A stretch of DNA of 64,000 nt from NCBI GenBank assembly GCA_001303585.1, contig LJTT01000009.1:1-64000 (forward strand), read 5' to 3'. Source of the stretch: Betaproteobacteria bacterium SG8_41 (GTDB lineage: Bacteria > Pseudomonadota > Gammaproteobacteria > Burkholderiales > SG8-41). Within the stretch, counting starts at the first letter, position 1; every line of letters begins with the position of its first letter. The position numbers and the translations under genes were made by a program. This document shows positions 1 through 6,182 of the stretch, piece after piece. The notes under the pieces were generated by a model. That model searched no databases, was not told where the DNA came from, and was given only the letters and a program-made list of their open reading frames with translations.

Positions 1-36
1 GTCGGCGGATCGGGATTGCATTACAGCGGCATTCAT
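1..36 (-). CDS. ahcY: S-adenosylhomocysteine hydrolase, N-terminal fragment (window edge)
   Basis: Only the first 12 codons (MNAAVMQSRSAD) lie in the window; the gene runs off the left edge. The fragment is too short to identify by itself. The call comes from the leader, which holds two S-adenosylhomocysteine (SAH) riboswitch aptamers, and from metK lying just upstream on the same strand, the usual proteobacterial order. AhcY splits the methylation by-product SAH into adenosine and homocysteine in the cytoplasm. The start is the ATG at 36-34, preceded by AAGGAG at 50-45 with an 8-base gap. Confidence 0.75.
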   Translation of the reverse strand, partial: MNAAVMQSRSAD

Positions 37-57
37 GGATCAAGCTCCTTAAACGAA

Positions 58-130
58 GGGCGCAGTTCCACGCACAAGGTGTGCTTCCGAGCCTGGCCAG
101 GCTGTCCTGGTCGCAGCGCCCCTCGAAAGC
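58..130 (-). promoter_or_regulatory. SAH riboswitch, copy 2 (proximal to ahcY)
   Basis: Reading the minus strand, a 9-bp P1 helix pairs GCTTTCGAG (130-122) with CTCGGAAGC (91-83), with one G-U pair. It encloses the family-typical GGGGCGCTGCGACC and GCCAGGCTCGG segments. GGGCGC (121-116) can pair with GCGCCC (63-58) as the pseudoknot, and a small GCACA/TGTGC hairpin takes the place of P4. The 3' pseudoknot strand lies 7 bases before the AAGGAG ribosome-binding site. The alternative pairing CCTT/AAGG (60-57 with 50-47) would hide that site. This copy therefore looks suited to translational control, with SAH freeing the ribosome-binding site. Confidence 0.85.
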
Positions 131-137
131 CGGGACC

Positions 138-175
138 AAAAAGCAAAGCGCCCGCATCGTTCCCGATGCGAGCGC
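138..175 (-). terminator. Intrinsic terminator between the two SAH aptamers
   Basis: On the minus strand GCGCTCGCATCG pairs with CGATGCGGGCGC (12 bp, one G-U) around a GGAA loop (175-148). TTTGCTTTTT (147-138) follows. The 5' arm shares CGCTC (174-170) with the pseudoknot strand of the upstream aptamer, so pseudoknot formation with SAH and the full terminator compete. That gives an ON switch for ahcY, the known behaviour of this class. Confidence 0.8.
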
Positions 176-230
176 CGTTGTGTTTTCGCTGAGCCTGGCC
201 GGGCCGCCCCGGTCGCAACGCTCCTCAGCG
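170..230 (-). promoter_or_regulatory. SAH riboswitch, copy 1 (distal)
   Basis: On the minus strand P1 is CGCTGAG (230-224) with CTCAGCG (193-187). Between them are GGAGCGTTGCGACC and GGCCAGGCTCAG, both typical of SAH aptamers. GAGCG (223-219) can form the pseudoknot with CGCTC (174-170). The pseudoknot pair differs in sequence from that of copy 2 yet stays complementary, so the two copies covary. It is followed directly by the terminator at 175-138. Confidence 0.85.
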
Positions 231-236
231 GCCCGG

Positions 237-242
237 ATTATA
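237..242 (-). promoter_or_regulatory. -10 box of the ahcY leader transcript
   Basis: A perfect TATAAT on the minus strand (242-237) places transcription start near 230, exactly the first base of P1 of the distal SAH aptamer. No good -35 hexamer is visible 16-18 bases upstream. The box lies 38 bases past the metK stop, so ahcY can be transcribed separately from metK. Confidence 0.6.
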
Positions 243-280: not shown

Positions 281-1444
281 CTAGCGCCCTGCGTCGGCCT
301 TGAGCGCGGACACCTTGTCGAGCGCTTCCCAGCTGAACTCGGGTTCGTCGCGGCCAAAGTGACCATAGGCCGCGGTCTTGGTATAGATCGGGCGCACCAG
401 GTCGAGCGCGTGAATGATGCCTTTCGGTCGCAGGTCGAAGTGCTTCTCGACCAGCGCCGCTAGCTTATCCTCCGATATCGTCCCCGTGCCGAATGTCTCG
501 ACGAGCACGCTGACCGGGCGCGCCACGCCGATCGCGTAGGCGACCTGTATTTCGCACTTCTTTGCAAGACCGGCAGCGACGATGTTCTTGGCGACATGGC
601 GCGCGGCGTAGGCTGCCGAGCGGTCGACCTTGGAAGGATCCTTGCCGGAGAACGCGCCGCCGCCGTGGCGCGAGTAGCCGCCATAGGTGTCCACGATGAT
701 CTTGCGCCCCGTGAGGCCGGTGTCGCCGTGAGGTCCGCCGATCACGAAGCGGCCGGTCGGGTTGATGAGGTAGCGCGTCTGTTTCGTGATCATGTTTTTC
801 GGGAGCACGGGCTTGCAGATCTCCTCGATCACGGCCTCCGTCAGTGGCTCGTGCGAGATGTCCTCGCGGTGCTGGGTCGAGATCACGACCGTGTCAACGT
901 GATGCGGCTTGCCGTCCACGTAGCGCACAGAGACCTGCGACTTCGCGTCCGGACGCAGCCAGGGCAGGCGCCCGTCCTTGCGCAACTCTGCGTGGCGCTC
1001 CATGAGCCGGTGCGCATAGTAAATCGGCATCGGCATCAGCGCCGGCGTCTCGTCGCAGGCGAAGCCGTACATGAGGCCCTGGTCGCCCGCGCCCTGCTCC
1101 AGGTCGAGGCCCTTGCCTTCATCGACGCCCTGGGCGATGTCGGCCGACTGGCGGTCGAACGCGGTGAGCACCGCGCACGAGCGATAATCGAACCCCGTGG
1201 CCGAATCGTCGTAGCCGATGCGCTTGATCACGTCCCGCGCAAGGTCGCCATAATTGACGGCGGCGTGCGTGGTGATCTGGCCAGCCATGACGACGAGGCC
1301 GGTGGCAACCAGCGTTTCGGCGGCGACACGGCCGTGCCGGTCCTGCGCGAGCACCGCGTCGAGCACGGCATCGGAAATCTGGTCGGCGATCTTGTCGGGA
1401 TGGCCTTCGGAGACGGATTCGGAAGTAAATAGAAAATCGCTCAT
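281..1444 (-). CDS. metK: S-adenosylmethionine synthetase
   Basis: Cytoplasmic enzyme that makes S-adenosylmethionine from methionine and ATP. 387 residues, normal family length. Visible signatures: the N-terminal [10 protein letters not shown] segment, GAGDQG in the middle, and the glycine-rich [16 protein letters not shown] loop. The start is the ATG at 1444-1442 giving [11 protein letters not shown]; the frame stays open another 68 codons upstream, but that part is not MetK-like and would cross the divergent spacer. AGAAG upstream of the ATG is a modest ribosome-binding site. Its product is the source of the SAH sensed by the two riboswitches before ahcY. Confidence 0.97.
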
Positions 1445-2466: not shown

Positions 2467-3336
2467 GTGCTGATTCGGTTCGGGCTCGCGCTGCTGTGGC
2501 TGCTGCATTTTCTACCGTTGAGCGTGCTGGCCGCGCTCGGGCGCGGTTTGGGGCTGGTTCTCTACGCGCTTGGTCGCGAACGGCGCAATGTTGCGTTGAC
2601 GAATCTGCGGCTGTGTTTTCCGCATTGGACCGAGGAAGAGCGGCGCAAGGTCGCGCGTCGTCATGTTCAGGCCGTCGCCCGCAGCTTTGTCGAACGCGGG
2701 ATCCTGTGGTGGAGTTCGCTAGAGCGCATTCAACGGCTGATTCGAGTGGAAGGCCGCGAGCACGTTGATGCCATGCACGGCCAGCCCATGATCTGGCTTG
2801 CCCCGCATTTTGTGGGTCTCGATATGGGCGGCACGCGCTTGATCACCGAATGGGCTGGCTGCTCGATGTACAGCCGCCAGAAGGACCCGGTGGTCGATCG
2901 CGTACTGCTGCGCGGACGCACACGCTTCATCACGCCGCGCCTGTTCTCCCGTCAGGACGGTATCCGGCCGCTGGTGCGCGCCATCCGCGAGGGCTTGCCG
3001 TTCTATTATTTGCCCGACCAGGATCTGGGGCCGCGTGAGTCGATTTTCGTGCCGTTCTTCGGCGTTCCGGCAGCGACGATTACCGGTCTTTCCCGGTTGG
3101 CTCGTCTCGCCGGCGCGGTGGTTGTGCCCGTGGTGACACGCCAGCTCCCGGGCGGGGACGGTTACGTGACGACCTTTTACCCGCACTGGCGTGGCTTTCC
3201 GAGCGGGGACGACGAGGCCGATGCGCGCCGCATGAATGCGTTCATCGAGCAGCGCGTGCTCGAGATGCCGGAGCAGTACTGGTGGCTGCACAAGCGGTTC
3301 AAGACCCGACCGCCCGGCGAGACGCGACCGTATTGA
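2467..3336 (+). CDS. Lipid A late acyltransferase, LpxL/HtrB family (second copy)
   Basis: 289-residue homologue of the preceding gene, diverged in sequence. It has the same hydrophobic N terminus, an HX4D catalytic motif (HFVGLD), FYYLPDQDLGP and the C-terminal QYWWLHKRFKTRP. The Asp in place of Glu in HX4(D/E) is allowed in the family. The start is GTG at 2467, 87 bases after the previous stop. Two neighbouring family members suggest two secondary acylations of lipid A. The next genes modify the sugar precursor (see gnnA, gnnB), so this looks like a lipid A island placed before dapF. Confidence 0.9.
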   Translation: MLIRFGLALLWLLHFLPLSVLAALGRGLGLVLYALGRERRNVALTNLRLCFPHWTEEERRKVARRHVQAVARSFVERGILWWSSLERIQRLIRVEGREHVDAMHGQPMIWLAPHFVGLDMGGTRLITEWAGCSMYSRQKDPVVDRVLLRGRTRFITPRLFSRQDGIRPLVRAIREGLPFYYLPDQDLGPRESIFVPFFGVPAATITGLSRLARLAGAVVVPVVTRQLPGGDGYVTTFYPHWRGFPSGDDEADARRMNAFIEQRVLEMPEQYWWLHKRFKTRPPGETRPY

Positions 3337-3437
3337 GCGTTCCGTGCTGTAGTGGTCGCCGCCACGTGCGCCGCACGATGGCCACGCGATAGAATGGGGC
3401 CGGACGACTGATGGCTGGAACACCGCAGGAGCAAAAT

Positions 3438-4403
3438 GTGAACAAGTTGCGCGCGGCCGTGATCGGCGCGGGCTATTTCGGGCGCTTGCATGCATTGAAG
3501 CTGGCCGCCAATCCTGACGTGGATCTGGTGGCCATTGCCGATGTCGACACGCCGCGAGCCGAAGCCGTCGCGCGCGAAACGGGCTGCCGGGCAGTGCGCA
3601 ATTTCCGGGATCTGATCGGCAGCATTGATATCGCGTCGGTGGCGGTCCCGACCGAGTCGCACCACGCGCTCGCCCGCCCGATGATCGACGCGGGCGTGCA
3701 TGTGCTGGTCGAAAAGCCGATCGCAAAGACGCTGGAGCAGGCTGACGATCTGGTGCGGCTTGCCGCGGCGCGCGGCACGCTCGTTGCCGTGGGTCATCAG
3801 GAGCGATTCAATCCGGCATTCGTGGCGCTGCGCGCCAAGCCCAGCCGGGCGCTTTTCATCGAGGCGGAGCGGCTGACCGAATTTCGCGGCCGCGGAACCG
3901 ACGTTGATATCGTGCTCGACTTGATGATCCACGATCTGGATCTGATCCTCACGCTCGTGGGGGCCGAGCCGGTCCAGGTGTCGGCCTGCGGTTTCAGCGT
4001 GCTCACCGATGCCCTCGATATTGCGAACGCGCGGCTCGAATTCGCCAGCGGGTGCGTAGCGAACGTTTCGGCCAGCCGGGTGAGCCAGTCCCCCGTGCGC
4101 AAGCTGCGGGTGTTCCAGGCCGATTCTTATGTCTCGGCCGACCTCCAGGGCGCGCGATTGCGTTCCGTGTGCCGTTCCACGACAGCAGCGAGCGGCGTGG
4201 CCGTCGAAGAGCAGTCTTTTGAAAGCGCCGATGCGCTGGGCGCGGGAATCGCCGCATTCGTGAACGCGGTGCGCGCGCGGCGGTCGCCGCCGGTGGACGG
4301 TGAGGCGGGGCGGCGGGCGCTCAAGCTCGCGCTTGAGATCGGGGATCTCGTGCGCGCCCGCCTCGAGCGGCTTTTCCCGACTGGTTCGGCGAGCGCCGCA
4401 TGA
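3438..4403 (+). CDS. gnnA: Gfo/Idh/MocA-family NAD-dependent dehydrogenase, GnnA-like
   Basis: 321-residue oxidoreductase. The N-terminal Rossmann fold shows VIGAGYFGRLH, and the family motif VEKPIAKT with its catalytic Lys is near residue 98; the C-terminal domain binds the sugar. With the overlapping DegT-family aminotransferase downstream it fits GnnA, which oxidises the 3-position of UDP-GlcNAc in the route to UDP-GlcNAc3N for lipid A (established in Acidithiobacillus ferrooxidans). The alternative is a WlbA/WbpB-type dehydrogenase for a surface polysaccharide; two LpxL-like genes just upstream favour GnnA. The GTG at 3438 is preferred because AGGAG lies 6 bases before it; the in-frame ATG at 3411 has no such site. 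Confidence 0.7.
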   Translation: MNKLRAAVIGAGYFGRLHALKLAANPDVDLVAIADVDTPRAEAVARETGCRAVRNFRDLIGSIDIASVAVPTESHHALARPMIDAGVHVLVEKPIAKTLEQADDLVRLAAARGTLVAVGHQERFNPAFVALRAKPSRALFIEAERLTEFRGRGTDVDIVLDLMIHDLDLILTLVGAEPVQVSACGFSVLTDALDIANARLEFASGCVANVSASRVSQSPVRKLRVFQADSYVSADLQGARLRSVCRSTTAASGVAVEEQSFESADALGAGIAAFVNAVRARRSPPVDGEAGRRALKLALEIGDLVRARLERLFPTGSASAA

Positions 4404-5494
4404 AGGTGCCGATGCTCGATCTGGTGGGCGAGTACCGCGAGTTGCGCGCGGAGATAGAGCCAGCTGTCGGACGTGTTCTGGCCTCAGGCCATTACATCCT
4501 CGGTCAGGAAGTCGCCCGTCTCGAGGCCGAGGTTGCGCGCTATGTCGGTGTCCCGCATGCCGTGGCGGTGGCCTCCGGTACCGATGCGCTCATACTTGGG
4601 TTGCGCGCCGCTGGCATCGGCTCGGGTGACGAGGTGGTCACTCCGGCATTTACGTTCATCGCGGCCGCCGAAGCCATTACCCATGTCGGCGCGCGGCCTG
4701 TTTTTGCCGACATCGATCCACTGACCTACAACATGGACCCGGCGAGTCTGGAGGCGGCGCTTACGCCGGGCACGCGCGCGGTGATCGCGGTGCATCTCTT
4801 CGGCCAGAGCGCTGAGATCGCCGAAATCCGCGCCATCTGCAAGGACCGCCGGTTGGTGCTCATCGAAGACTGCGCGCAGGCGATCGGGGCGGACTATGAC
4901 GGTGTGCGTGTCGGGGGCTGGGGGGCGCTCGGCTGCTTTTCCTTCTACCCGACGAAGAATCTCGGAGCCTGCGGTGACGGGGGCCTGGTGACGACGCGCG
5001 ATGCGGCGCTGGCGGAGCGGCTGAGAATGCTGCGCCATCACGGCAGCCGTGTGGCCTATCAGCATGAGATCGTCGGCTACAACAGCCGCCTCGATGAGCT
5101 GCAGGCGGCGATCCTGCTCACCAAGGTCGCCCATCTCGACCGTTTCAACGCCGCGCGGCGGGCGCACGCTGCCGCATACAGGAAGGCGCTCACCGGCGCC
5201 CCCATCGGGCTTCCCCGCGAGCACGGGCGCGGTACGCATGTCTACCATGTCTACTGCGTTCGCGCGGCGCGACGCGATGCCGTGCGCGAAGCGCTGGCCG
5301 CCCGCGGCATCGCGAGTGGAATCTACTACCCCATCCCGCTCCACAAGCAGGCGGCCTACGAGCGCGAATTCGGGAATGTGCAGCTGCCCCACTCGGAGCA
5401 GGCGGCGCGAGAGGTGCTGGCGCTGCCGATCTACCCTCAGCTGGACGAGGCGCGTATCGGGCTGGTGTGCGAGGCGGTGCGGAGTGCGCTCTGA
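4400..5494 (+). CDS. gnnB: DegT/DnrJ/EryC1/StrS-family PLP aminotransferase, GnnB-like
   Basis: 364-residue sugar aminotransferase. The PLP-binding lysine is K186 in SFYPTKNLGACGDGG; the SGTDAL segment near residue 60, EDCAQAIGA (156-164) and the C-terminal GIYYPIPLH are family hallmarks. Its ATG overlaps the stop of the dehydrogenase by 4 bases, so the two are probably translationally coupled. Proposed role: glutamate-dependent amination of the 3-keto sugar made by GnnA to give UDP-GlcNAc3N, which would let LpxA add an amide-linked chain. Related enzymes (WlbC/WbpE) serve O-antigen sugars, so substrate is inferred. Confidence 0.75.
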   Translation: MKVPMLDLVGEYRELRAEIEPAVGRVLASGHYILGQEVARLEAEVARYVGVPHAVAVASGTDALILGLRAAGIGSGDEVVTPAFTFIAAAEAITHVGARPVFADIDPLTYNMDPASLEAALTPGTRAVIAVHLFGQSAEIAEIRAICKDRRLVLIEDCAQAIGADYDGVRVGGWGALGCFSFYPTKNLGACGDGGLVTTRDAALAERLRMLRHHGSRVAYQHEIVGYNSRLDELQAAILLTKVAHLDRFNAARRAHAAAYRKALTGAPIGLPREHGRGTHVYHVYCVRAARRDAVREALAARGIASGIYYPIPLHKQAAYEREFGNVQLPHSEQAAREVLALPIYPQLDEARIGLVCEAVRSAL

Positions 5495-5525: not shown

Positions 5526-6182
5526 ATGGAGCGTATCCCCGAGCCGGAGTTGATGGAGCAGTGGGAGCAGGCACGAGCGTACGCCCTGGCCGATTTCAGC
5601 GAGCCGCACGACGCCTTCGTGCGACACTTCCAGCGGCTCTTCCCGGTTTTCGCGCAGGGGCGCGTGATCGATCTCGGTTGCGGCGCAGCCGACGTCACGA
5701 TTCGCTTCGCGCGGGCTTACCCGCAGTCGACGCTCGTGGGCCTGGACGGCGCCGAAGCGATGCTCCAGCTCGGGCAGGAGGCGGTCGCGCGTGCCGGTCT
5801 CGATTCGCGAATCGACCTGCGCCAGTTGCGTTTGCCGGCGGCAGGCATCGGCCGGGACTACGATGCCGTGATCAGCAACAGCCTGTTGCATCACCTGGCC
5901 GAGCCCGCGACATTGTGGGAGGCCGTGGCGCGAGCAGCCCGGCCGAGCGCGCCCGTCCTGGTCATGGATTTGTTGCGGCCGGCCTCGCGCGACGCGGCGC
6001 TCACGCTTGTCCGTCTGCATGCCGCGGAGGCTCCGCCCGTTCTGGCGCGCGACTTCTTCAACTCGATGCTTGCAGCTTACCGGCCAGACGAGGTCAGGAA
6101 GCAGCTGCGCGCCGCGGGTCTTATGCATTTGGATGTTGAGATCGTGAGCGACCGTCACTGGCTGGTGTGCGGCCATGTTTGA
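5526..6182 (+). CDS. Class I SAM-dependent methyltransferase, target unknown
   Basis: 218 residues with a clear SAM-binding motif I (RVIDLGCGAADVT, residues 46-58), an acidic LDGAE at the end of strand 2 and a motif IV-like YDAVISNSLLHHL. It is a methyltransferase of the UbiE/Methyltransf_11 type; nothing indicates the substrate. It starts 31 bases after gnnB and overlaps the next gene by 8 bases, so it is likely co-transcribed with the gnn pair. Its position after sugar-nucleotide genes makes a small-molecule substrate possible, but this is inference. Confidence 0.75.
   Translation: MERIPEPELMEQWEQARAYALADFSEPHDAFVRHFQRLFPVFAQGRVIDLGCGAADVTIRFARAYPQSTLVGLDGAEAMLQLGQEAVARAGLDSRIDLRQLRLPAAGIGRDYDAVISNSLLHHLAEPATLWEAVARAARPSAPVLVMDLLRPASRDAALTLVRLHAAEAPPVLARDFFNSMLAAYRPDEVRKQLRAAGLMHLDVEIVSDRHWLVCGHV

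Follow-up and report, generated by a model that had tools for sequence, protein, structure and literature searches.

The leader of ahcY in Betaproteobacteria bacterium SG8_41 carries two SAH riboswitch aptamers in series. Judged from sequence, it is probably (at a probability of about 0.72) a two-stage, SAH-activated leader built of two modules that also occur singly. The gene ahcY encodes SAH hydrolase, which clears SAH, a toxic by-product of methylation. The tandem element lies between metK and ahcY on the minus strand and is read from right to left in the window, by which the whole analysed stretch of 64,000 nucleotides is meant. It was compared in a set of 33 leaders with the tandem layout, which came from 25 of the 74 genomes in the family, from five genomes of other families of the order and from three further named metagenome-assembled genomes. 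The features of the window are the following.

1..36, minus strand: first 12 codons of ahcY (MNAAVMQSRSAD), bases read directly; the contig start truncates the gene
36-34, minus strand: ATG start codon of ahcY, read from the bases
45..48, minus strand: GGAG, putative ribosome-binding site of ahcY, 9 nt after the copy 2 pseudoknot strand and starting 12 nt before the ATG
51..130, minus strand: SAH riboswitch aptamer, copy 2 (RF01057, 48.6 bits)
58..64, minus strand: 3' strand of the copy 2 pseudoknot, TGCGCCC (covariance model and comparison of the 33 leaders)
116..120, minus strand: 5' strand of the copy 2 pseudoknot, GGCGC (covariance model and comparison of the 33 leaders)
147-138, minus strand: T tract of the terminator, directly after the hairpin
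148..175, minus strand: intrinsic terminator hairpin of 13 pairs, scanned as 176-147 (terminator scan, folding and covariation)
163..232, minus strand: SAH riboswitch aptamer, copy 1, transcribed first (RF01057, 57.3 bits)
170..176, minus strand: 3' strand of the copy 1 pseudoknot, GGCGCTC, which doubles as the terminator 5' arm
218..222, minus strand: 5' strand of the copy 1 pseudoknot, AGCGT (covariance model and comparison of the 33 leaders)
237..242, minus strand: TATAAT, putative -10 element of a promoter belonging to the leader itself; the GAGG of copy 1 follows after 16 nt
281..1444, minus strand: metK (TIGR01034 and Pfam S-AdoMet_synt), upstream on the same strand

Since ahcY is truncated in the window, and a genome search with the AhcY fragment of a relative as query (run without a positive control) found none of the remaining gene, the identity of the gene rests on relatives. 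A family search identified full-length AhcY at the same place in the relative G001, and an AhcY-like frame follows the leader in all 32 other tandem leaders, in some cases truncated by contig ends. The motifs for calling AhcY and MetK were based in part on the sequences compared here, and confirmation by family search covers one AhcY and the MetK of the window. The stop codon of metK in the window lies 54 nt upstream of the copy 1 GAGG. Further genes were seen on the other side of metK. Divergent from it, an adjacent pair of lipid A acyltransferase-like genes (PF03279) occupies 1510-2379 and 2467-3336 on the plus strand, a GFO/IDH/MocA oxidoreductase overlapping a DegT/DnrJ aminotransferase lies at 3411-5494 on the plus strand, and a methyltransferase-like frame follows this last pair at 5526-6182.

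Two complete SAH aptamers in series had been proposed in the first-pass annotation, and the covariance model scored both of them (57.3 and 48.6 bits) above the Rfam cut-off for RF01057 of 37 bits, with alignments over the full model length. With the pseudoknot present and ahcY downstream (gene identity via relatives), both copies belong to RF01057. The pair accounts for all Rfam matches over the cut-off within the window and for all RF01057 matches reported in this genome, of which 150 of 1649 candidates were scored. A gap of 32 nt separates the two matches, and an open reading frame of note would not fit into it. On folding, the aptamer stretches of the window were not unusually stable (z 0.99 and -1.20); the pseudoknots may account for this ordinary stability, which does not count as positive evidence. 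Both copies are predicted to bind SAH.

The pseudoknots were found to be copy-specific. In all 33 leaders the 3' strand reads GCGCTC in copy 1 and GCGCC[CT] in copy 2, and one position of the helix is occupied by an A-U pair in copy 1 and by a G-C pair in copy 2 (32 of 33 leaders each), which confirms the earlier observation that the two helices differ in sequence and stay complementary. Exceptions at this position are G197, with G-U in copy 1, and G120, with an A-C mismatch in copy 2. In both copies, standard pairing is kept at six pseudoknot positions in 32 or more of the 33 leaders, and the seventh pair, a terminal U-G, is lost in one copy 1 and in three copy 2s, that of the window included.

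These data bear on an alternative explanation, according to which the leader is on its way to becoming terminator-only, with copy 1 as its one working switch and copy 2 as a remnant that is redundant or in decay. Copy 2 of the window scores lower, and the first base of its pseudoknot 3' strand is a T, where 29 of 33 copy 2s carry a G. Against this explanation, copy 2 keeps the six conserved pairs of its pseudoknot, and in G003 the outer pair of this helix changed from G-C to A-U, a compensated double change. Likewise, each of the four inner P1 pairs of copy 2 is standard in no fewer than 32 of the 33 leaders, and the fifth is so in 26 of 33, where C-G, T-A and G-C types occur. Together with the distribution of the two halves, given below, these conserved pairs make the remnant explanation rather unlikely.

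Orthogonal pseudoknots as a means of insulation between the two aptamers were also considered and rejected as stated, as the energies of cross-pairing are close and the copy 1 strand even pairs better with the core of copy 2 (-10.95) than with its own core (-9.73). Because the pseudoknots are not orthogonal, independence of the two gates would rest on the order of synthesis. As a separate observation, the copy 2 linker of four leaders (L057, L100, L117 and L118) contains a small GC-rich hairpin-like stretch (GCGTCCC..GACGC) between P1 and the pseudoknot strand, which by eye is absent from the listed linkers of genus g6.

Transcription termination by copy 1 is well supported, at the level of sequence, as the first predicted gate. 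The terminator region of the window folds with -25.8 kcal/mol (z -6.5), and the outer 5' arm of its 13-pair hairpin, GCGCTC, is the pseudoknot strand of copy 1, as the first-pass annotation had described. In total, the terminator scan lists three matches against a shuffled mean of 0.5; the other two are weak, with five pairs each, and one of these lies within copy 2 (75-60, minus strand). When at least seven pairs, an overlap with the pseudoknot strand and subsequent T's were demanded, a terminator was found after copy 1 in 33 of 33 leaders and after copy 2 in none of the 33. Of the terminator's twelve outer pairs, one is standard in 31 of the 33 leaders and each of the other eleven in 32 or more. 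Among 20 distinct sequences, 98.8% of the terminator cells pair (shuffled mean 94.7) and 12 cells are changed on both sides, each value being reached in 0 of 500 shuffles, whereas only two pairs show double-sided changes, a number matched by 203 of 500 shuffles; this covariation control is inflated by the relatedness of the sequences. The terminator arms pair with a mean energy of about -21 kcal/mol compared to -9.7 for the copy 1 pseudoknot strands without ligand, and therefore ligand and timing during synthesis would be needed for the pseudoknot to win.

For copy 2, translation is the likely output, and the main support comes from its position and from the absent terminator. The pseudoknot strand ends 9-24 nt upstream of a GGAG-like site throughout the 33 leaders. 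In the window the spacing to GGAG is 9 nt. It had further been suggested that a CCTT/AAGG pairing hides the ribosome-binding site. Both motifs are contained in the window (59-56 and 50-47), but permutation tests did not support a hiding pairing as a feature shared by the leaders. Two candidates were rejected in this respect, as the complementarity of the pseudoknot strand plus spacer to its own site was no better than to the sites of other rows (1900 of 2000 permutations as low), and the same held true for the P1 5' strand (1909 of 2000), even though GGAG is paired with the P1 5' strand in the unconstrained minimum-energy fold of the window (brackets read by eye). For the P1 3' strand plus linker, only 1 of 2000 permutations was as good; permutation within clades left 225 of 5000, and the signal is therefore weak and due in part to relatedness.

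Modelled accessibility of the ribosome-binding site pointed in no consistent direction either. The mean over the 33 leaders was 0.43 without and 0.46 with the pseudoknot (0.37 and 0.39 in the window), and changes above 0.05 were upwards in 15 and downwards in nine leaders. Of the earlier proposal of one transcriptional and one translational switch, the transcriptional half is backed by the terminator overlap conserved in 33 of 33 leaders, and the translational half is suggested by position. The inconsistent folding at the ribosome-binding site also speaks in favour of copy 2 being a remnant. Moreover, together with the missing conserved site-hiding pairing and the weak five-pair terminator-like match inside copy 2 of the window, it leaves room for both copies acting on transcription, or for copy 2 acting via Rho-dependent termination, message stability or another route apart from ribosome access. 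This is considered unlikely, as no terminator of at least seven pairs on the pseudoknot strand follows copy 2 in any of the 33 leaders and the strand ends close to the GGAG-like site in all of them.

Independently of the tandem leaders, several single-aptamer leaders of the genera g2, g3, g5 and g9 (L003, L004, L006, L009, L016 and similar ones) have in common stretches resembling CTTTTTTC and GAAAGGAG that flank the ribosome-binding site. By eye, these could pair and might hide the ribosome-binding site beside the pseudoknot strand, which would make a translational platform more plausible for these single leaders than for copy 2 of the tandem.

The tandem was found to be unevenly distributed. 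Within the family, where two matches at most 300 nt apart on one strand were counted and the window's own genome was included, it occurs in 19 of 21 genomes of genus g6, in three of ten of the window's genus g1, in two of three of g7, in one of five of g3 and in none of the 35 genomes of the remaining five genera. From the order, 399 genomes were drawn, of which 335 have the riboswitch and 36 have two matches, 12 of these being tandem by coordinates and 24 not. The tandems of other families belong to G045 and G419 (family f11), G112 and G197 (f40) and G120 (f48), which brings the arrangement to four or more families of the order. Three metagenome-assembled Burkholderiales genomes, SKW247, FR_12 and PRO12, were added through a pattern scan of named genomes. 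The scan yielded 32 stretches, of which 18 were given to Rfam (four hold the pair and 14 have no SAH match); the stretches outside this check were eight apparently already counted and L096, L099, L107, L109, L115 and L119, which are Actinomycetota and Streptomyces records.

The class was sampled with 369 genomes, of which 154 have the riboswitch; scoring 12 candidates per genome under stricter filters revealed no tandem outside the order. Seven genomes outside the order have two matches, which lie on separate contigs or more than 1 kb apart. Two of them, G534 (C3:160-1529) and G763 (C1:65782-67193), hold two SAH riboswitches on the same strand slightly more than 1 kb apart, perhaps standing before two neighbouring genes. 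A second SAH riboswitch lies elsewhere in each of the genomes G013, G023 and G028 (L082, L084 and L086), before a frame whose start, by eye, resembles metH (methionine synthase). As the wide searches score 11 or 12 candidates per genome, second copies can be missed; 40 single-copy loci re-scanned with Rfam as a control gave one match each. Thirty of the 33 leaders came from covariance-model searches, which are blind to terminator and copy order, and three came from the pattern, in which a GCGCNC strand must separate the copies. One leader, that of G197, was missed by the locating motif and added to the set by hand.

A chance duplication or an assembly artefact, i.e., a pair without function, might be suspected since the named tandem records are metagenome-assembled genomes. 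This is very improbable in view of 33 leaders from at least four families of the order, with the same order of diverged copies and with copy-specific pseudoknots.

The two halves of the tandem were also found separately. Single-aptamer ahcY leaders, counted once per genome, number 73, and 13 of them are of the terminator type; all 13 have the TATAAT-like box, and metK was seen upstream in seven, with some contigs or stretches being too short to tell. Another 11 combine a GGCG core with a GCGCCC strand as in copy 2; they have no terminator (0 of 11), the box in one, and metK upstream at 14-173 nt in all 11. The remaining types without terminator are 46 leaders with an AGCG core (box in 39) and three with a GGCG core and a GCGCTC strand (box in one). 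Since the box is present in 39 of 46 AGCG-core leaders that lack a terminator, it tracks the AGCG core and not the terminator alone. Given these single occurrences of either half, the tandem appears to combine two recurrent modules.

In the window's genus, the first module only was found in G002, G006 and G009 and the second only in G005, whereas G004, G007 and G008 showed no riboswitch match. The three genomes with the terminator module alone are what would be expected if copy 2 were being lost as a remnant, but a copy-2-type riboswitch stands alone before ahcY in 11 genomes, and both copies are kept in 19 of 21 genomes of g6. In a tree of AhcY (quick method, 109 loci, window excluded), the tandem label needs 10 changes, at least six of them forced by starred branches, compared to a shuffled mean of 27.8; four of the 109 loci are unlabelled, with no riboswitch core by motif, and the tree does not distinguish gain from loss. 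The constant order of the copies and their specific sequences agree with an old tandem that repeatedly lost one of its halves, and transfer is also possible.

A promoter of its own is suggested for the leader by a hexamer matching TATAAT at 5 or 6 positions, which is located 15-17 nt before the copy 1 GAGG in 33 of 33 tandem leaders and is exact in 27. At shifted offsets, used as a control, the box was found in 0.6 leaders on average and in at most three of 33. A clear -35 box was not detected, the best match having 2-3 of 6 bases in 26 of 33 tandem leaders, and a consensus promoter scan found no promoter. The metK stop lies at most 168 nt upstream of GAGG in 17 leaders and 332-1167 nt upstream in nine, and it was not seen in seven. 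Four leaders keep the box though the metK stop is only 18 nt before GAGG, so that the box touches the region of the stop codon. For Burkholderia cenocepacia, a 119-nt RNA with a single SAH riboswitch from the 5' UTR of adenosylhomocysteinase was described, which was deduced from dRNA-seq and whose length was unconfirmed experimentally (PMC4603805).

In the preferred two-stage reading, transcription would start probably a few bases past the TATAAT at 242-237 and thus almost at copy 1, and read-through transcripts from metK would feed the same leader. In the absence of SAH, the pseudoknot strand of copy 1 would be free to form the terminator 5' arm, and transcription would stop before copy 2. 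With SAH bound, the pseudoknot would keep GGCGCTC, the terminator would lose its outer pairs beside the T tract and the polymerase would read on. Copy 2 would then act as a second SAH sensor on the completed transcript and would most likely open the ribosome-binding site. An ON direction is thus predicted from the layout. A steeper or a two-step response is possible; by arithmetic, a pair of gates that are equal and independent would reduce the 10-90% range from 81-fold to no less than 40-fold. A more extended interpretation is proposed tentatively, at somewhat less than even odds. It holds that two SAH modules are matched to two sources of message, a promoter and terminator gate for the leader's own transcript and a translational gate without a box of its own, which otherwise serves metK-ahcY read-through, and that the tandem, which would be the first known for the SAH class, is old in the order, with lineages repeatedly losing either half.

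A survey of 44,270 bacterial genomes and environmental DNA by Sherlock et al. (2022) puts SAH, in its Table 3, among the classes not found in tandem (PMC9481103). The tandem criteria given there are one orientation, no intervening open reading frame and a gap of at most 300 nt (PMC9481103), and the pair of the window, with its gap of 32 nt, is a tandem by this definition. Leyn et al. (2014) reported that ahcY is preceded by SAH riboswitches in beta- and gammaproteobacteria, and in the part concerned the word tandem refers to MetJ boxes (PMC4239095). Excerpts of three further papers (PMC2864571, PMC3766115 and PMC7011215) do not mention an SAH pair. Among the matches listed from the open-licence literature, no report of a tandem SAH riboswitch was found, and a mention elsewhere is possible. 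The view of the first-pass annotation that the dual arrangement was undescribed can therefore be kept for the SAH class within the literature searched, but not for the principle, since bi-mechanism tandems were published for SAM-II/SAM-V and for some SAM-II pairs (PMC9481103).

Several known systems resemble the leader in part. Single SAH riboswitches (RF01057) before ahcY share aptamer and gene and occur with and without a terminator in the same order, whereas here two copies stand in series, apparently with different platforms. The SAM-II/SAM-V tandem likewise has the terminator first and the ribosome-binding site second for one ligand, but it combines two aptamer classes and SAM at the first is predicted to terminate, whereas here the SAH class occurs alone and is predicted to switch ON (PMC9481103). 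Tandem SAM-II riboswitches with mixed platforms also use one class twice, some with the terminator first and ribosome access second; ligand and aptamer differ (PMC9481103). Pseudo-cooperative tandems (TPP, c-di-GMP-I and others) similarly have a gene preceded by two complete riboswitches that share a ligand, but two successive decisions of the same kind steepen the response there, whereas the platforms appear to differ here (PMC9481103). Within the literature searched, what is new is the tandem for the SAH class, earlier reported absent; the aptamer and the bi-mechanism kind of tandem are known.

The tandem SAH leaders contradict the listing of SAH as a class without tandems in Table 3 of the survey (PMC9481103), and the bi-mechanism architecture gains a predicted ON-switch example. 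That the promoter box is linked with the type of aptamer and platform suggests a reason for the choice of a riboswitch between control of termination and of translation. Relatives with both halves, with the first only and with the second only, all three within one genus, constitute a natural series on the value of a second gate against a toxic metabolite, and if the two-module reading is true, they would offer natural dissections of a bi-mechanism ON switch.
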